NCBI GenBank assembly: GCA_014382645.1
Contig: JACNJI010000286.1
Location: forward strand, 1-14,931
Origin: Verrucomicrobiota bacterium
GTDB lineage: Bacteria > Verrucomicrobiota > Verrucomicrobiia > Opitutales > Seribacteraceae
DNA length: 14,931 nt
Reading direction: 5' to 3'
How positions within the stretch are numbered: the stretch's first letter is position 1; every line of letters begins with the position of its first letter. Position numbers and translations under genes: made by a program. The notes under the pieces were generated by a model, which was not told the DNA's origin, ran no database searches, and saw only the letters and a program-made list of their open reading frames with translations. Shown here piece after piece: positions 1,973 through 12,903 of this stretch.

Positions 1973-4900
1973 TTACTTGTCCAGTTCCTCTTCTGTCCAC
2001 GGTTTGTCGCGATTCTTTGTCGCCTCTCTTACCGATTTCACCTCATGCGGGCTCACCGTGCCGCTCCCTTGCCCGAATTCCTTCCGAATGAAGGTCAGTA
2101 CATCGGCAATCTGTTTATCGGTTAGGCCGCCCATCGCTGGCATCGGTACGGAGTTCGGTTTGTCACCATGCACTTGGCCCGCCACGGAGATGGGACCAGT
2201 TAAGCCGTGTAGAACGGTTTTGATGAGTCTGGCCTTGTCTTTGCCGCTAACCCAATCGCTTCCCGCGAGTGGTGGGTAGACGCCTGGTAGGCCCTTGCCT
2301 CCGGGTTGATGGCACGCCAGGCAGGCCGTCTCATAAATCTTTTCTCCTGGTGCTCGTGGTTTTGGAATTTCGCCGAGAAGTCTACGCAAATACTCGCGTT
2401 GAACATCGCTGTCCAGAGAAAGCTGGCCATCCGCAAAGGCCGTGGCCCAATACGACTGGAGGGCACGTGCGCTCTGGCGAATCGCGTAGTCCAGAAAGGG
2501 ATCGCGCGGTTGATCAAGGGCTGCTGCGACGACTTTAATCGATTCGGACTGTGGCAGGTAGCTCGTGGCAATGACGGCTTCGAGACGGACGCGGGGATGC
2601 TGATCCACGACCCTAGCGTTCAGGAGGCTGAGGGGATCGTCCAATGCCCCGGCCCACATTCCCGTCACGCGGGTGGCGTAGGCTCGAACTCGGGCGTCCT
2701 CCGAGTTCAGAAGACGTTTCAGTAACCCCGGGTGCGGCGATTCGTGAGCCTGGAAAATGCCGATCAGTTCGAGTCGTTGCTGATCATTTTCCGCCTTTTC
2801 AATCAACGCCGTTGCCGCCGGGATCACGGCCGCCGTCGGGGCGTCAAACAACAGCCGCTTAGCCTGGTACCGGGTCCAGCGTTCGGGCGATTGCAGCTGG
2901 TCGAGCAATTCTGCGGGTGACATCGCGGCGAGGTCGGGTTGTTTGATGGGATCGCGATTTTTCGCCGTGATCCGCCAGATGCGGCCGTGAGTCATATCGC
3001 GTCGGGGATCGGCGTAGCTCGCTTGGTAGTGGCCGATTACCGGATTGTACCAATCGGCCAAATACATACCGCCATCCGGACCGACACTAACATCGACAGG
3101 ACGAAACGCGTTGTTCGATGATTTCAGTAACTTGGGCAGCTGGGTCGTTTTAAAGCCGGAACCCGCATCTTCGAAACGGTGCAGCTCGACCACGGCTCCG
3201 AAATAACCGCCTATCAGAGCGCTGCCCTGAATTTCGTCGGGCAGGGCGCGGGTGCCGATGATATCGAGCGAAGTCGTCTTGGGTGATGTTTCAAAAAGCG
3301 GTCCGACGGAGTGGTATTGTTCGGGCGATGCGCGGTAGGAAGCGCTGGCCTCGGTTTCCGAACTACTACCCGTCGAGCTGGCCCCGCTTACCATGCCGGG
3401 GACAGACCAATAGCCCTGGGGACGGTCGCCGGATTTGTGAAAAACCTGTCCGTAGTCATCAAAGGCGATACCCCAGCAATTAGCTCCCGCCATTCCGCCG
3501 CCGAAAAAGCCTTCTAGCAGCAAGGTTCGCGGATTAAAGCGCCACAGTGCGGCCCGGTCGAGTCGCTTGATTCCCCAGGGAGTCTCGACTCTCGACATGG
3601 CGTGTAGGCCCTGACTGAACCACAACGTGCCGTCCGGACCGTGGCAGATGCTGTTGATAAGCTGGTGAGTGTCGCCGATCCCAAATCCAGAAAAAATGAC
3701 ACGGTGCTCGTCCGCTTTTCCGTCGCCATCCGTATCGCGCAGGTGGAGGAGGCGATCGAAATCGCAAACATAAACCCCGCCTTTCCCTCCCCCGGGTTCA
3801 ACTCCCTGAACCATGGTCAGGCCATCGGCGAAGGTCCACGACTTATCGGCCTTGCCGTCGCCATCGGTATCTTCAACGATCTGGATGTAGTCGGAATTGT
3901 CCGAGCCGGCGAGAGATTGTGGATAAGACGGCGAGCAGGCCGCGTAGAGTCGCCCGCGTTCGTCCCAGGCGATTTGCACGGGGTTGACCACACCGTGTTC
4001 CTCGGAGGCAAATAGATTGACCTCGTATCCCTCCGCCATCTCGAAAGTGGCCTGTTGTTCCTCCGGGGTGAGAGCTTTCGAGGCACTGGCATGAGAGGTT
4101 TTTCTTTTAGGCAATTTCAGGTGAGTGGCCGATTCGCCAAGAGCGAGAGCGTGAATCCGAGCGTCAGCGGACTTAACGAGCGGAAGCTGGGCGTTGAAGG
4201 CCGCCTGCAGGGAAGACCCCTGTCCACCCGGCTTCCCATACATTTGATTGACTCGATCTCCGTAGACGAAGGACCAGTTCGCGGGTCGCCAGCAATCGAA
4301 CCAGAGCCGGTTTTTGAGGATGACTGCTGTGTTCAATTGTGGCTTTGATAAAAGGCTTTCCACATCTTGTTCAAGGCTGCCGACAATAGCTCGGCTAACA
4401 GTCTTCAATCCGCGGCCCGTGAGATGGACGCCGTTTTCAGTTCGCCGTTCCCCGGTTAGTCCTGACAGATTCACAAAAACAGCGCCGCGTTGTTTCGCGA
4501 TCTCTCGGATTGCGTTCGTATAAGCGACGACATCACCATTCCGATTCGACATATCTGGCGCATGCGAAGCAAGCGGCTTCTCGAAAGGCATTGGCGAGAC
4601 TAGAACGAGGCGTTTGGTTCGGGCTGCGAATTGATCCAGCAACCGGTGAAAGGCGGTGATGAACTCGGGTAAACGCTCCATTCCATCGAGCGCTTCCATT
4701 TGCCCGAATTGAGCGATCACCATCGTCGCGCCAACCGCTTCCAATTGCTCCGACCAGGTTCCGAAGTTCAGTTCGCGCCATTGCTGGTAAACCGTGTCCG
4801 CCTCCCACGCCATGGGCCGAAAAACGGGCTTTTTATCCGCGTAGGCCAATCCTAACAAAGACTCAATATTCCCCGCCTTTTGTTCCCGCACGAAATTCTC

Positions 4901-5647
4901 CTGGCCGGCGAAGACAATCACCTCGTTCTTGCCCACTTTGAACTTTCCCTCGGAAAAGGGAGCGAGAGGTGCGGACGGTTGCGCTTTGCCGAAACGCCTC
5001 AAAATCAACCCATCGGGCGGAACGGCTGATTTGGGCAAATCCTCGATCGTGATATTGCGAAAGGAAATTTCGGCCTTGCAGTCACCGTGAATCTGAAGGG
5101 CGATTTTGCCCTCCTTCGCAATTTCCGGGTTCGACTCGCGGTAGATCGCCGTCCGCTGACCATTGATGAAAAGAAGGATCAGATTTCCATCGGCGATCAC
5201 TTCGTAGCGATTCCATTTGCCAGTTTTTTCAAGATGTCTGACGAACTCCTTATCAGCCTGGGCAAGAAACTTGCGGCGACGTGATTCGTCGTAAAGGCAT
5301 CCCGTCCAGCCTGCTCCAATATCCGCCTGAAACCCTGACATTTCGTTAGGCGGATCGGATATTCGCTCGCTCCGGAACTGCACCCCGCCATTGACGAAAC
5401 CTTCGGTGCCGACCAACTTGTATTCAAAACGCAAGTGGAAATTCCGGTAGGACTCGGTTGTGGCGAGGAACTCGTTTTTGGGATTCCCCGCCATCGAGCC
5501 TCCGATGATAACGCCATTCTCAATGTGCCAAACCTTATTCGTCTCGCCCTCCCAGCCGTTGAAGGTTTTGCCATCAAAAAGGGTGACCGGAGCGGAAAAT
5601 GTAGCAGTAGTGAGCCAAAAAAATGTGCAGACAAGGCAGAATCTCAT
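1973..5647 (-). CDS. DUF1080 - SGNH-like - PVC-type heme-binding dehydrogenase fusion with C-terminal cytochrome c
   Basis: A 1224-residue exported multidomain protein. Residues 1-18 are a signal peptide (MRFCLVCTFFWLTTATFS). Residues about 20-203 are DUF1080, from VTLFDGKTFNGWEG to FRNITIEDLP. Residues about 235-430 have the outline of an SGNH/GDSL hydrolase, but the nucleophile block reads FAGQENFV in place of GDS and the last block is ENGVHLT with His408. NRLWFDCWRPANWSF (446-460) is the usual linker of PVC dehydrogenases. Residues about 530-900 are the PVC membrane-bound dehydrogenase propeller: FEMAEGYEVNLFA, two DTDGDGKAD calcium-type loops at 593-601 and 638-646, RPVDVSVGPDGGMYLADWYN, HGRIWRI. 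Residues about 905-1090 are helical HEAT-like repeats. Cytochrome c follows, with CLACH at 1109-1113 and a likely Met ligand in MPAMG near 1161-1165. Family knowledge suggests periplasmic electron transfer coupled to sugar or alcohol oxidation. The fusion implies that DUF1080, whose characterised members hydrolyse 3-keto-disaccharides, acts on the oxidised product; that is inference. Domain calls are strong, activity unproven. Confidence 0.93.
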   Translation of the reverse strand: MRFCLVCTFFWLTTATFSAPVTLFDGKTFNGWEGETNKVWHIENGVIIGGSMAGNPKNEFLATTESYRNFHLRFEYKLVGTEGFVNGGVQFRSERISDPPNEMSGFQADIGAGWTGCLYDESRRRKFLAQADKEFVRHLEKTGKWNRYEVIADGNLILLFINGQRTAIYRESNPEIAKEGKIALQIHGDCKAEISFRNITIEDLPKSAVPPDGLILRRFGKAQPSAPLAPFSEGKFKVGKNEVIVFAGQENFVREQKAGNIESLLGLAYADKKPVFRPMAWEADTVYQQWRELNFGTWSEQLEAVGATMVIAQFGQMEALDGMERLPEFITAFHRLLDQFAARTKRLVLVSPMPFEKPLASHAPDMSNRNGDVVAYTNAIREIAKQRGAVFVNLSGLTGERRTENGVHLTGRGLKTVSRAIVGSLEQDVESLLSKPQLNTAVILKNRLWFDCWRPANWSFVYGDRVNQMYGKPGGQGSSLQAAFNAQLPLVKSADARIHALALGESATHLKLPKRKTSHASASKALTPEEQQATFEMAEGYEVNLFASEEHGVVNPVQIAWDERGRLYAACSPSYPQSLAGSDNSDYIQIVEDTDGDGKADKSWTFADGLTMVQGVEPGGGKGGVYVCDFDRLLHLRDTDGDGKADEHRVIFSGFGIGDTHQLINSICHGPDGTLWFSQGLHAMSRVETPWGIKRLDRAALWRFNPRTLLLEGFFGGGMAGANCWGIAFDDYGQVFHKSGDRPQGYWSVPGMVSGASSTGSSSETEASASYRASPEQYHSVGPLFETSPKTTSLDIIGTRALPDEIQGSALIGGYFGAVVELHRFEDAGSGFKTTQLPKLLKSSNNAFRPVDVSVGPDGGMYLADWYNPVIGHYQASYADPRRDMTHGRIWRITAKNRDPIKQPDLAAMSPAELLDQLQSPERWTRYQAKRLLFDAPTAAVIPAATALIEKAENDQQRLELIGIFQAHESPHPGLLKRLLNSEDARVRAYATRVTGMWAGALDDPLSLLNARVVDQHPRVRLEAVIATSYLPQSESIKVVAAALDQPRDPFLDYAIRQSARALQSYWATAFADGQLSLDSDVQREYLRRLLGEIPKPRAPGEKIYETACLACHQPGGKGLPGVYPPLAGSDWVSGKDKARLIKTVLHGLTGPISVAGQVHGDKPNSVPMPAMGGLTDKQIADVLTFIRKEFGQGSGTVSPHEVKSVREATKNRDKPWTEEELDK

Positions 5648-8878: not shown

Positions 8879-11212
8879 CTAGATTTTGTGCGGGTTTAAT
8901 TCTCGATTGCCGGTTGCGTCGGTGGCGGTGGCGGTGATGCTCTTGGACTTGGGTAGTTCGATGCTCCAGTCGGCGACGCCGTGGACTTGGCTGAGAATTC
9001 TGGCGGATTTACCGTTCACGGAAATGGTTTTCACGACGCCGTTGTCGTGGGTAGTCCCTTGAATCAGGAGGCGGTCGCCATTTGAGTCGATGCGCGTGAT
9101 GACGGTACAGGGCGGAAGGTCGTCCACGGGGCTTAGGAGTTCCGGAAAGTCTATACCACTTACTTTCGTTGCGAGGGATTCGTCACCAGTTAGACCCTTT
9201 TCCTTGGAATACTTGTTCCCGTCGCCAAGCAAGTCCTTGGCTCGAGAACTAATTACTTTGGCGTGCTTGCCGGGGCCGAAGTAGTCGTGAATGAAATAGG
9301 GAACGCCCTTGGGTGTGGATGGCTTGAGGCGAGGTCCACCGCCTAGGTTCATGAGTGGCCAACGGTCCGGGCGTTTGGGATCGCGACCTCGAACCGTCAC
9401 ATTGCGGAAATGTGATTCGGCCTTTCCGTTTACGTTGTTGGCGCTGATCTGGATGAGGGGCATGCTGCCGCCGTAACCCATATTGCTGAAGGTGAGTCCG
9501 TCGACAGTGATGCTTCCGTGCTGTACGCTCTTGTCGTCTAGGCCTCGATTGAAGGGTTCGCTTCCGGTTGCGGCAATGCTTAGGTCGCGGTAGACATGGT
9601 TCTCGAACCAGGGTCGATATATCCCGTAGACCGCGTGGTCGATTTGAATGTTTTCCGCCAGCATAGTGGGTAACTGGGCTCTGAATGCATAATGGGTCTG
9701 CCAAATTTTGAGGTCTCTTATGAGGTGCGGATGTCGCAGGTCGGGGCCTACGCCCTCGGTGCCTGCGAGGACGACGGAATAAAGTCCTTCGCTGTGTGAC
9801 TCGTTTTTCTCGAAGCGGCTAATGGCGAGGGTCCGTATGTCGACGATTTTTCTGGAACCGTCCGGCATGAGTATGCGTAGGTTGCTGTCGAAATTGCTGC
9901 GCTTTTGGCAATCATAACGAAAGCCGTATTTTGCATTTTCCACAGCTACGTTTCGAGTGAGAACATTTCGTCCATTTGCCCACCAGAAGGCGGCTCCGTC
10001 GTTTGGATCGAAGGGAAGCTCTTGGTCCTTCAGTCTAGGGCCATTGAAAGCCTGTACGCCGAGGTTGCGGTCGAGCAGGTTGAATACTTCCGACCCGTTC
10101 TCAAGGAAGTAGCCGTGTCCCACCGACTTGTAGCCTACGCAGTCACGCACAAGTAGGTATTGCGTGCCGTGAATCGTGACCCAACGGTTGTGCGAGTCGA
10201 CTACGGCGACGCCGAGCACAGCAGAACCGCGCATTGTTTCGCCGACCAGATGGAAGTGTATTGGGTATCTCCCCAGTTCGCCTTCCTTCCCGAGATGGGC
10301 GAAACGGGCGTAGCTGATACCGCCCTTGCTGTGTCGATGGTACATGGTGTGACCCCGGACGCCATCTGGATCGGCGCTTTCGACGATGACGTTTCGGGAT
10401 AAATTTGCCACCTCGCTACGAAACTCTCCATCCCCAGAGTGTTCCAAGCGCAAGGGTTTGTCGAGAGTGATTGAGTGCCCATCGATGGCCTTAACTATTC
10501 GCTCTTCCGTGCCCACTTCCTCGTCGCGATAGGTACCCATGTTTCGCACTTTCTTGGAGGCGGTCACGATTATCTCGTCACCTACGCGCCAGTCGGAGAC
10601 ATTCTCATTCACGACAATCTTTGCGTCGCCCGGTTGGCAGGTCGCACCCAGTTTAACCCATGGCCTCCCAAGGGGGGAGCCGTGCAATTCCATACGGGCA
10701 GAGCAACAAACCAGCGCGGGTGCATCTTTTTTGTCCATGCCCTCCAAATAGTGGAGGCGAATACGAGCAGTATGCGCTGCGGGGATTGGGTTTTGTTGCG
10801 TGCCCACTTCGAGAGTGGGCAAGGATTGCCCCAGTTGGGCGTTCGGTTCACCGTTTGGTTTCAAGCTGTTGAAATCACAGGCGAATCCACGTTCCGTACA
10901 TTTGTTGCCTGCTTGAACCTTGAGTAGGCAAGCGTTGAGCTCGGTACTGCGGTCCCGGGCGAACCGGAGTGTTCCGGCCACCTGAATAAGCCGTATGACG
11001 GGCGTGGTTTTTGCGTCAAAGCGAACCGAGGTGCGTGAACTAATCAATACACGGTCTCCCGCTTTTGGGAGGCGTTGTGGTTGCCAGATCTTTGGATTTG
11101 TCCAATCGCCATCGGCGACCGACTTAACGGAAAACTGAACGGTCTCACGCTGTGCAGGAAGAACGGCGGTAAAGGTGGTGACCAACAGGAGGATCGAGAG
11201 AATGGTCTTCAT
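8879..11212 (-). CDS. G8-domain beta-helix protein, CEMIP/TMEM2-like, exported
   Basis: A 777-residue protein. Residues 1-20 are a signal peptide. Residues about 33-155 form a G8 domain: SVADGDWTNPKIWQPQRLPK, then AGDRVLISS, VAGTLRFA, LEVGTQQNPI. A long right-handed beta-helix follows, with stretches closely resembling animal CEMIP (KIAA1199) and TMEM2: SITLDKPLRLEH (247-258), GRYPIHFHL (314-322), NRWVTIHGTQ (342-351) and VGHGYFLENGSE (364-375). A C-terminal beta-sandwich-like part (about 690-777) contains DNGVVKTISVNG and TATATDATGN. In animals this family acts on hyaluronan, so polysaccharide binding or depolymerisation outside the cytoplasm is a reasonable inference; the bacterial substrate is unknown. 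The ATG at 11212 overlaps the stop of the preceding beta-helix gene by 4 bases and has AAGG six bases upstream, fixing the start. It probably shares an operon with the beta-helix and DUF1080 genes upstream. Alternative: a carbohydrate-binding structural protein without catalysis. Confidence 0.9.
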   Translation of the reverse strand: MKTILSILLLVTTFTAVLPAQRETVQFSVKSVADGDWTNPKIWQPQRLPKAGDRVLISSRTSVRFDAKTTPVIRLIQVAGTLRFARDRSTELNACLLKVQAGNKCTERGFACDFNSLKPNGEPNAQLGQSLPTLEVGTQQNPIPAAHTARIRLHYLEGMDKKDAPALVCCSARMELHGSPLGRPWVKLGATCQPGDAKIVVNENVSDWRVGDEIIVTASKKVRNMGTYRDEEVGTEERIVKAIDGHSITLDKPLRLEHSGDGEFRSEVANLSRNVIVESADPDGVRGHTMYHRHSKGGISYARFAHLGKEGELGRYPIHFHLVGETMRGSAVLGVAVVDSHNRWVTIHGTQYLLVRDCVGYKSVGHGYFLENGSEVFNLLDRNLGVQAFNGPRLKDQELPFDPNDGAAFWWANGRNVLTRNVAVENAKYGFRYDCQKRSNFDSNLRILMPDGSRKIVDIRTLAISRFEKNESHSEGLYSVVLAGTEGVGPDLRHPHLIRDLKIWQTHYAFRAQLPTMLAENIQIDHAVYGIYRPWFENHVYRDLSIAATGSEPFNRGLDDKSVQHGSITVDGLTFSNMGYGGSMPLIQISANNVNGKAESHFRNVTVRGRDPKRPDRWPLMNLGGGPRLKPSTPKGVPYFIHDYFGPGKHAKVISSRAKDLLGDGNKYSKEKGLTGDESLATKVSGIDFPELLSPVDDLPPCTVITRIDSNGDRLLIQGTTHDNGVVKTISVNGKSARILSQVHGVADWSIELPKSKSITATATDATGNRELNPHKI
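11209..11212 (-). promoter_or_regulatory. ATGA start/stop overlap, translational coupling
   Basis: The TGA of the cysteine-ladder beta-helix gene overlaps the ATG of the G8 gene in the four bases ATGA, with AAGG (bases 11219-11222 on the minus strand) six bases ahead. This arrangement normally couples translation of the second gene to the first, and suggests the two proteins are made together. Confidence 0.75.
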
Positions 11213-12903
11213 GGTGTGCCTTGTTTGTTAGGTTTCTTCCGTACCAGATTCCCCTTGACCGTGGCTTTGCGTCCGATGATCTCAAGGGCTTGGGAATTGA
11301 TGTCGTCTGAGAAGGCGATGTTGCCCGAAGCCTCGGTTGGCTTCTCGCTGTTTCGTATGACAAGAGCGGTGCCTAGAAAAGCGTGAACTTTGTTGTCGTT
11401 TGCTGAGACTTGATTGGCTTTCGAGGCGAAAAGGGCATGTCGCCAGTGGTCCACTTCGTTGTTTGAAAAAGTAACTGAAGAGCCTTCCCTTACCCAAGTG
11501 GCGAAGTTCGGAGGTCCACCTTTGCGGGGACCGTTGCCGTGAAAGCGGTTCTTCTCGATATGGGCGGTCCCTTGGAGCAGAACGCCGGCCACGCCACCGC
11601 CGTTTAGGTCGTTGTCGGTTAGGGTGGCGGTCGAATTCTCCAGAATGGCTACGAGTGGGGGCATGCCTCCCTTTCGGGACATGATGTTCTTTTTAGCGGT
11701 CAGCTTGGAACCATTTCGGATGCCGATGGCTACGAGGGCATTGTCGATAAGGCGGTTATTGATCAGGAGTGCTTCCGACTGATGGCGAACCCCGATGCCC
11801 GATGCCTTGTTGTCTTTGCAGAGGTTATCCACGATTTTTGCCACGACTCCATGCTCGATTCCAATCCCGGCGGCACCGTTCCCAATGCATTCGTTGCCCA
11901 CTATTTCGGGATGCGCTTCGTGACGGGCACCAATGCCCGCTAGTTTGTTTTTATGACAACGATTTGAGCGAATGATTGGTCGGGCTTCCTCCTCGGTTCC
12001 TATCCCGGCCATATCGTTTTCGAAGCAGTCGTTGTCTTCAATCACGGGGCGTGTGTCCTTACCCGTCCGTATGCCAATACCAGCCCGGCGGTTTTCATAA
12101 CAACGGTTTTTCGTCACGGTGGGAGAACTGCCCTCGCTTATGCCAATACCAGCCCGGATGTTGTTGTAGCATTTGTTTCCGCGTACCATGGGACTTGCTC
12201 CATTGTGGCCAATGCCTGCGTAAAAGTTTTCGAAGCAGACGTTGTTTTCGATTAGTGCGGTGGAGCCGGCCATGGAACCGATGCCACCGCCCATGTTGCG
12301 ATAGCAGACATTGCCGATGACGCCGGGCGACACTTTCCGATCCTTGGATCCCGTGATACCGATGCCCGTGTAGCCGACGTGATGCACGATGTTGTTCTTC
12401 ACTTCGCATGTGTAACGCACTTCGATGCCAGCTGTGCCGGAGACGCCGATATGCTCGTGGCTCTGCATGTTCCCCTGCGTTGCGTAATGTTTCTTCCACT
12501 TGTCGTCGTCGTAGCGACCCACCCCGGTCACGGTAAAACCATCCAAGGTCGCGTCTGCTCCCATAGTGACACCCGGACCTTTCCCTTTCGGGTGGTTCAG
12601 TATAGTGATTTCGGCCCGCTTTAGACCGAGTGCGCCCTTGGCGTCGTCTCCCGTGCTCCGGACGGTTATTCCTGCTTTCAGGACTATCCGCTCGCGGTAG
12701 GTGCCTGCCTCCACAAGGACGCGGTCGTTCGGTTCGGCTTTGTCGATGGCCGATTGTATCGAGGGGTAGTCTTTCGGCACCAGCAAATCGGCGGCACTGG
12801 TCCTATGGACGAAAGAAGTGAGTTGGGCCGTCGCGAAAATTACGAGTGGGAGAAACGCTTTCATTGTAAAAATAAAGGACTTGATTTGGGTTTTCATTTG
12901 CAT
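11209..12903 (-). CDS. Exported right-handed beta-helix protein with NxCxxN ladder
   Basis: A protein of 564 residues as called from 12903. A second ATG at 12864 starts MKAFLPLVIFATAQL, a cleaner signal peptide, and may be the true start (551 residues); neither has a strong ribosome site. DLLVPKDYPSIQSAIDKAEP and RVLVEAGTYRERIVLKAG (39-78) are the standard opening of parallel beta-helix (NosD/CASH-type) proteins. Residues about 198-404 hold nine consecutive rungs of 22-25 residues of the form NxCxxN...AGIGI, eight of them with Cys at the same place. Further, less regular rungs run to about 555. Such folds are used by pectate lyases, alginate epimerases and NosD; they bind long polymers along the helix. 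I see no recognisable catalytic set, so substrate and activity stay open. It lies 54 bases downstream of the DUF1080 gene and its stop overlaps the G8 start, so it sits mid-operon. Fold call is strong, function unknown. Confidence 0.92.
   Translation of the reverse strand: MQMKTQIKSFIFTMKAFLPLVIFATAQLTSFVHRTSAADLLVPKDYPSIQSAIDKAEPNDRVLVEAGTYRERIVLKAGITVRSTGDDAKGALGLKRAEITILNHPKGKGPGVTMGADATLDGFTVTGVGRYDDDKWKKHYATQGNMQSHEHIGVSGTAGIEVRYTCEVKNNIVHHVGYTGIGITGSKDRKVSPGVIGNVCYRNMGGGIGSMAGSTALIENNVCFENFYAGIGHNGASPMVRGNKCYNNIRAGIGISEGSSPTVTKNRCYENRRAGIGIRTGKDTRPVIEDNDCFENDMAGIGTEEEARPIIRSNRCHKNKLAGIGARHEAHPEIVGNECIGNGAAGIGIEHGVVAKIVDNLCKDNKASGIGVRHQSEALLINNRLIDNALVAIGIRNGSKLTAKKNIMSRKGGMPPLVAILENSTATLTDNDLNGGGVAGVLLQGTAHIEKNRFHGNGPRKGGPPNFATWVREGSSVTFSNNEVDHWRHALFASKANQVSANDNKVHAFLGTALVIRNSEKPTEASGNIAFSDDINSQALEIIGRKATVKGNLVRKKPNKQGTP
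11692..12312 (-). repeat. Nine tandem beta-helix rungs within the coding sequence
   Basis: Residues 198-404 of the beta-helix protein consist of nine repeats, mostly of 23 codons (69 bases). The cysteines are at 200, 223, 245, 268, 293, 316, 339 and 362; the ninth rung has NRLIDN with Leu at that place. At DNA level most repeats have diverged, but one 19-base block, tatgccaataccagcccgg, recurs exactly at 12070-12088 and 12139-12157, spaced 69 bases, pointing to duplication or gene conversion of whole rungs. Confidence 0.9.

Follow-up and report, generated by a model that had tools for sequence, protein, structure and literature searches.

What does a bacterium do with a protein built like the animal hyaluronan proteins CEMIP (KIAA1199, HYBID) and TMEM2 (CEMIP2)? 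The question is raised by a 14,931-nucleotide contig of a Verrucomicrobiota bacterium (JACNJI010000286.1, assembly GCA_014382645.1; the window, hereafter), which encodes on its minus strand a 777-residue protein with a G8 domain (the G8 protein) and, overlapping its start, a second beta-helix protein (BH). A sequence-only reading had seen in the G8 protein, BH and the DUF1080 and PQQ-like genes upstream of them one secreted system for a long polysaccharide. We find that the G8 protein is an ordinary member of a large, annotated bacterial family, uncharacterised as far as the literature we searched shows (no study there was recognisable as bacterial G8/CEMIP work, most subscription journals lying outside it), and that what is useful here is a proposal for the active site of CEMIP and TMEM2 together with a likely polysaccharide context. 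On balance, we think it probable that the window encodes a secreted right-handed beta-helix protein with a G8/CEMIP core that acts inside the chain of a long, presumably anionic polysaccharide, using the groove of the beta-helix and a candidate His/Tyr cluster, with BH as an accessory.

A bacterial subfamily of the G8/CEMIP proteins

The G8 protein scores above cut-off for both the G8 domain (PF10162) and the CEMIP beta-helix (PF24606; Table 1, and 132.4 bits in a genome-wide scan), and the stretches YPIHFHL, VTIHGTQ and GHGYFLENGSE, from which the likeness to CEMIP and TMEM2 had been read, are present and alignable to TMEM2 (PDB 8c6i). The match to TMEM2 lies far beyond chance, at E = 2.5e-18 with the window protein alone and 8.3e-34 with a 48-sequence profile. 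It is also the sole convincing sequence match in PDB, the two other rows of the single-protein search standing at E 0.16 and 0.17. All of the strongly conserved core residues of CEMIP/TMEM2 are found in the window protein, and it has a TMEM2-like fold.

Relatives are numerous: of 7997 candidates scored in a protein search, 3644 reach E <= 0.001, and nearly all of the best 120 of these 3644 carry both domains, some under the public name 'G8 domain-containing protein'. Their distribution is patchy, PF24606 being found in 5 of 57 relatives (own genome included), in 7 of 288 genomes of a sample of the phylum (own genome again included) and, among planctomycetes, in 18 of the 246 genomes sampled (16 above cut-off). 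In a midpoint-rooted tree of the core (264 columns), 16 short-type proteins, the type to which the window protein belongs, form a clade of 17 with support 100, the seventeenth being L089, which carries an extra domain. TMEM2 is placed among other bacterial proteins, nearest L085, with support 64 (54-65 for the nodes that hold it), and L085 is likewise the best match to TMEM2 (E 5.3e-63) among the window protein, L085 and L088, with a core identity of 43% as against 31% for the window protein. The window protein thus belongs to a separate subfamily and is no orthologue of CEMIP or TMEM2. This subfamily is large, patchily distributed and, in our data, found mainly in planctomycetes and verrucomicrobia.

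Some members depart from the common plan. L089 (3432-6629) has a C-terminal FGE-sulfatase domain (PF03781), and in L084 (4820-7822) the order is unusual, the G8 match lying C-terminal to the CEMIP beta-helix. Two planctomycete genomes, G515 and G549, hold five and four CEMIP-core matches respectively, with R315 or E371 (window protein numbering) replaced in some.

A candidate active site and its likely substrate

Which residues of the core might do chemistry? Across 27 sequences (16 short-type proteins, 10 others and TMEM2), the positions identical in all 27 include H288, R315, Y316, H319, H321, H348, H366, E371, E375, W410, N416, N421, N470 and H473. A second comparison took in 30 further proteins, none among the 27, which were found via PF24606 or tblastn (9 from plasmids and 21 from genome loci; one broken gene was left out, as were L071 and L072, below the PF24606 cut-off). 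They are mostly about 30% identical to the first set, two are 91% alike, and their having been found through the same core entails some bias. Y316, H319, H348 and N421 are kept in all 30, H321 in 29 and H288 in 26, followed by E371 (25), E375 (24), R315 (23) and H366 (15). R315, H366, E371 and E375 were given lower weight because they are replaced in 7, 15, 5 and 6 of the 30, respectively.

Conservation from bacteria to human TMEM2 thus singles out four residues in both proteins: Y316, H319, H321 and H348, corresponding to TMEM2 Y547, H550, H552 and H585. (TMEM2 numbers are obtained by adding 82 to the chain index; Cys554, listed as unpaired in PMC10206443, served as the check.) H319 and H321 lie two apart on one strand (318-324) and H348 on another (345-350), from which we infer that the three histidines may point to one side from successive coils. 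An HxH motif with a third histidine is a common metal-binding pattern. As it happens, the activity of TMEM2 has been called calcium dependent (PMC10474455, PMC10276149).

We picture the window protein as binding a long polysaccharide, probably an anionic one, along a groove of its beta-helix and cutting inside the chain. An outward-facing cluster would hold the reaction or a metal ion. Tyr316, His319 and His321 would sit on one strand or at its edge and His348 on the strand one coil further on, with Arg315, Glu371 and Glu375 assisting. A bolder version, which we regard as possible though rather doubtful, is that the same four residues are the ancestral catalytic or metal-binding site throughout the G8/CEMIP superfamily, also in human CEMIP and TMEM2. 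On this view the ancestor would have cut or processed exopolysaccharides of bacteria, often sulfated ones, and the GG/lectin-like module of the animal proteins would be a later addition directing the same chemistry to hyaluronan.

The kind of substrate is suggested by relatives on plasmids. A tblastn search of 72,556 plasmids gave 10 records, all of which were inspected. In each of the seven from Rhodobacterales (L136-L142, plasmids of Leisingera, Antarctobacter, Salipiger, Ruegeria and Rhodobacteraceae S2214) the relative belongs to a group of glycosyltransferase genes and genes for polysaccharide biosynthesis or export, or, in Antarctobacter, borders on one. GH16 genes accompany it in 6/7 and sulfotransferases in 6/7, Ruegeria having neither in the stretch shown. 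By our judgement these clusters amount to about four independent arrangements, several being alike. Both domains score above cut-off in all five of the Rhodobacterales proteins scanned, the CEMIP core barely so in two. The window's own genome (G000, a 3.8 Mb assembly) has 112 matches to the PF00884 sulfatases, 110 of them above cut-off and some of them fragments, a count that suggests a specialist on sulfated polysaccharides. Since Rhodobacterales relatives sit in or beside polysaccharide clusters and the own genome is so rich in sulfatase matches, it is reasonable to look for the substrate among long, perhaps sulfated polysaccharides, and to this extent the sequence-only reading stands; its multi-gene system does not, as we argue below.

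Several points weigh against an enzyme of this kind. Four of the residues identical in the first comparison are replaced in part of the second, as detailed above, and the conserved histidines and asparagines could be structural. No report of activity for any bacterial member turned up in the literature searched, and the activity of TMEM2 itself is disputed: none was found in PMC10206443, the human protein was inactive in PMC10276149, and activity was robust in PMC10474455. Furthermore, the loss-of-activity mutations that we found fall in the GG/lectin-like module, which is missing here, and none of them implicates the core. The module carries the TMEM2 substitutions R265C, D273N and D286N (PMC10206443), TMEM2 H248/A303 (PMC10276149) and CEMIP R187 (PMC6888145), and chimeras also implicate the C-terminal tail of TMEM2 (PMC10276149). 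As for context, three of the ten plasmid loci (Croceibacterium, Vitreoscilla and a planctomycete) lie outside polysaccharide clusters, and in planctomycete and verrucomicrobial loci the 30 adjacent genes scanned show no polysaccharide theme.

How far do these points favour other explanations? One is that the protein is a non-catalytic beta-helix that binds surfaces or matrix, as an adhesin or lectin-like protein would, with the conserved residues serving the fold. Residues 708-770 resemble the adhesin repeat family NF033510 (Ca_tandemer), weakly and below threshold (20.5 bits against 50), some Rhodobacterales members carry RTX repeats, LamG or PA14 domains, and TMEM2 was inactive in one careful study (PMC10206443). 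Yet for one tyrosine and three histidines to be retained in 56-57 of 57 sequences, at an identity of about 30%, would in our judgement be unusual if their role were purely structural, and we consider this explanation unlikely, albeit a serious one. Alternatively, the window protein might be a true bacterial hyaluronidase, working as CEMIP and TMEM2 do, whose fold and core residues it shares. The absence of the GG/lectin-like module, the position outside the TMEM2 group and the shorter stretches in place of two cleft-blocking loops (see below) all speak against this, and we rate it as very improbable. That the protein is an enzyme, that the cluster is its active site and that its substrate belongs to the class above is what we infer in preference to both.

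The neighbouring beta-helix gene

The features of the window that bear on these questions are collected in Table 1.

Table 1. Coordinates of the G8 protein, BH and their parts in the window (residue numbers refer to the G8 protein)
Feature	Position	Strand	Basis or TMEM2 counterpart
G8/CEMIP-core beta-helix protein, 777 aa, signal-like N-terminus	8879..11212	-	ORF
G8 domain, residues 43-188	10649..11086	-	PF10162, 45.9 bits vs cut-off 22.9
CEMIP beta-helix, residues 287-475	9788..10354	-	PF24606, 130.6 bits vs cut-off 27.3
R315-Y316-P-I-H319-F-H321	10250..10270	-	TMEM2 R546, Y547, H550, H552
V345-T-I-H348-G-T350	10163..10180	-	TMEM2 H585
G365-H366-G-Y-F-L-E371-N-G-S-E375	10088..10120	-	TMEM2 H603, E608, E612
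C-terminal region, residues 697-777, predicted all-beta	8882..9124	-	limits from BLAST blocks
BH, 564-aa right-handed parallel beta-helix protein with Asn/Cys repeats	11209..12903	-	PF13229, PF05048
Overlap of BH stop and G8 start, four bases, ATGA	11209..11212	-	sequence

On the minus strand the gene order is PQQ-like, DUF1080, BH, G8, DUF1501, FKBP, a DUF1080/cytochrome fusion and a second PQQ. The layout described from the sequence alone is therefore confirmed, with the four-base overlap and with the PQQ-like and DUF1080 genes (the latter PF06439, now named 3-keto-disaccharide hydrolase) upstream of the pair. The fusion gene (1973-5647) encodes 1224 residues comprising DUF1080, a sub-threshold GDSL-like stretch, DUF7133, HEAT and cytochrome c. 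The GC and GC3 values of BH and G8 agree with those of most genes around them (FKBP being lower), and by this measure there is no indication of a recent transfer from a foreign source.

BH is indeed a beta-helix protein (127.6 bits for PF13229, with PF05048 also matched; model pLDDT 90.9) and, like the G8 protein, has a hydrophobic N-terminus that by eye resembles a Sec signal. In a fold search the matches were beta-helices of diverse kinds, and the first of them had an rmsd of 9.2. BH has repeats (PF13229/PF05048) and fold in common with NosD, AlgG and AlgE4. As an AlgG mannuronan epimerase or a NosD it falls far below the NCBIfam cut-offs (31 vs 700 bits and 34.7 vs 300 bits, respectively), and we reject both identities. 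Conserved in BH are six cysteines, one per coil of about 22-25 residues (C223, C245, C268, C293, C316 and C339), and a group comprising D132, H139, H174, H175 and Y178.

Are these genes one system? Among five genomes of the genus, the own genome, G002 and G004 have both BH and G8. G003 carries PQQ1 (99%), DUF1080 (93%), DUF1501 (90%) and FKBP (87%) in the same order, with 101 bases from DUF1080 to DUF1501 (L131:3781-3881) and neither BH nor G8 between them. G001 has neither gene, and its corresponding site was not located. It follows that BH and G8 come and go together, with the remaining genes as their flanks, and we reject DUF1080 and PQQ as parts of a system. Note that DUF1080 does stand directly upstream of G8 in 2 of the 16 upstream neighbours scanned (L015 and L033), which we take as chance; the family is common in these phyla, and the own genome has four matches.

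Outside the genus the pair dissolves. In 32 of 41 loci taken from genome contigs the sequence ahead of the G8 match exceeds 1.7 kb; BH lies beside G8 in two of these, L002 and L006, both of the window's genus, and is found in none of the other 30, anywhere in the locus, at E <= 1e-5, some of these loci being closely related. Conversely, no G8 match occurs in 14 regions around BH homologues of other genomes, four of which are shorter than 7.2 kb. Nor does another beta-helix take its place: 30 of the 44 same-strand neighbours within 350 bases were scanned (16 upstream, 14 downstream; L028, L030, L031 and L038 not included), and none matches a beta-helix family, several matching no family at all and others being as varied as NDK, anthranilate synthase, H+-pyrophosphatase and carboxypeptidase Taq. 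Conservation of the pair had been named beforehand as one test of the proposed system, and in the loci covered it is seen within the genus only. There is no four-gene system beyond a genus-level cassette of two genes, and the G8 protein has no fixed partner. Since BH travels with G8 in this genus, its likely role is that of an accessory and not of a component of a conserved system.

It might still be argued that BH and G8 make up a two-protein system of their own (an epimerase or lyase together with a CEMIP-like depolymerase, say), translationally coupled and selected as a pair. The four-base overlap and the joint absence of both genes from G003 fit this idea, and so does co-occurrence. With a BH homologue defined by E <= 1e-60, homologues are found in 11 of 34 genomes from which G8 loci had come (the 41 loci minus three of the genus, G053 and three that share the genome of a locus already used) as against 5 of 228 PF24606-negative planctomycete genomes (Fisher p 1e-7, in a test that ignores shared ancestry). 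They are also commoner where the G8 protein is at least 60% identical (6/9 vs 6/26, p 0.04, hand tally), and among the 57 relatives all four genomes with a BH of at least 64% identity also have PF24606. Within the unselected planctomycete sample alone, 8 of 246 genomes have a BH homologue and 3 of the 8 also PF24606 (hypergeometric p 0.015). Against this, search depth was unequal, at most 5 (planctomycete) and 4 (verrucomicrobial) candidates being scored per genome compared with all for the genomes of G8 loci. In the verrucomicrobial sample the only genome of 288 with a BH homologue is the own one, while six others have PF24606 without BH. Moreover, neither protein is found beside the other outside the genus, as described above, and the overlap is lost even inside it: four bases in the own genome and G004 (L006) become an 8-base gap in G002 (L002), where BH stops earlier. 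Because shared ancestry and unequal depth confound the comparison, we claim no functional link and treat the co-occurrence as a lead only; a dedicated pair strikes us as improbable.

Comparison with known systems

How, then, does the window protein stand to proteins already known? Beta-helix polysaccharide lyases and epimerases (RbmB, AlgG, AlgE4 and the K1 capsule lyase) are remote, with 8-14% identity and no catalytic-residue correspondence established. To the thousands of clusters of bacterial 'G8 domain-containing proteins' the window protein belongs without essential difference, the domains being the same. L085, a longer bacterial CEMIP-like protein of 1528 residues, has the same core residues, lies nearer TMEM2 and carries extra sequence.

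From TMEM2 itself the window protein differs in its core (31% identical, in a separate clade with support 100) and in having, by eye, a signal-like N-terminus where TMEM2 has a membrane anchor. The GG/lectin-like module is missing: no Pfam match to it is seen at E <= 1, and nine residues separate the G8 match (to 188) from the next TMEM2-matching stretch (from 198), as against well over 100 in TMEM2. Two loops block the middle of the TMEM2 cleft (PMC10206443), and the stretches that match them are shorter here, 24 vs 43 residues by alignment and about 32 vs 59 when matched by hand. Whether TMEM2 is an enzyme at all is under dispute, and no active site could be assigned from its crystal structure (PMC10206443). 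A compact bacterial relative, probably secreted, that dispenses with the lectin-like module and has shorter cleft loops would offer a simple test bed for the four residues that it shares with the human protein, with natural substrates suggested by the roseobacter polysaccharide clusters.
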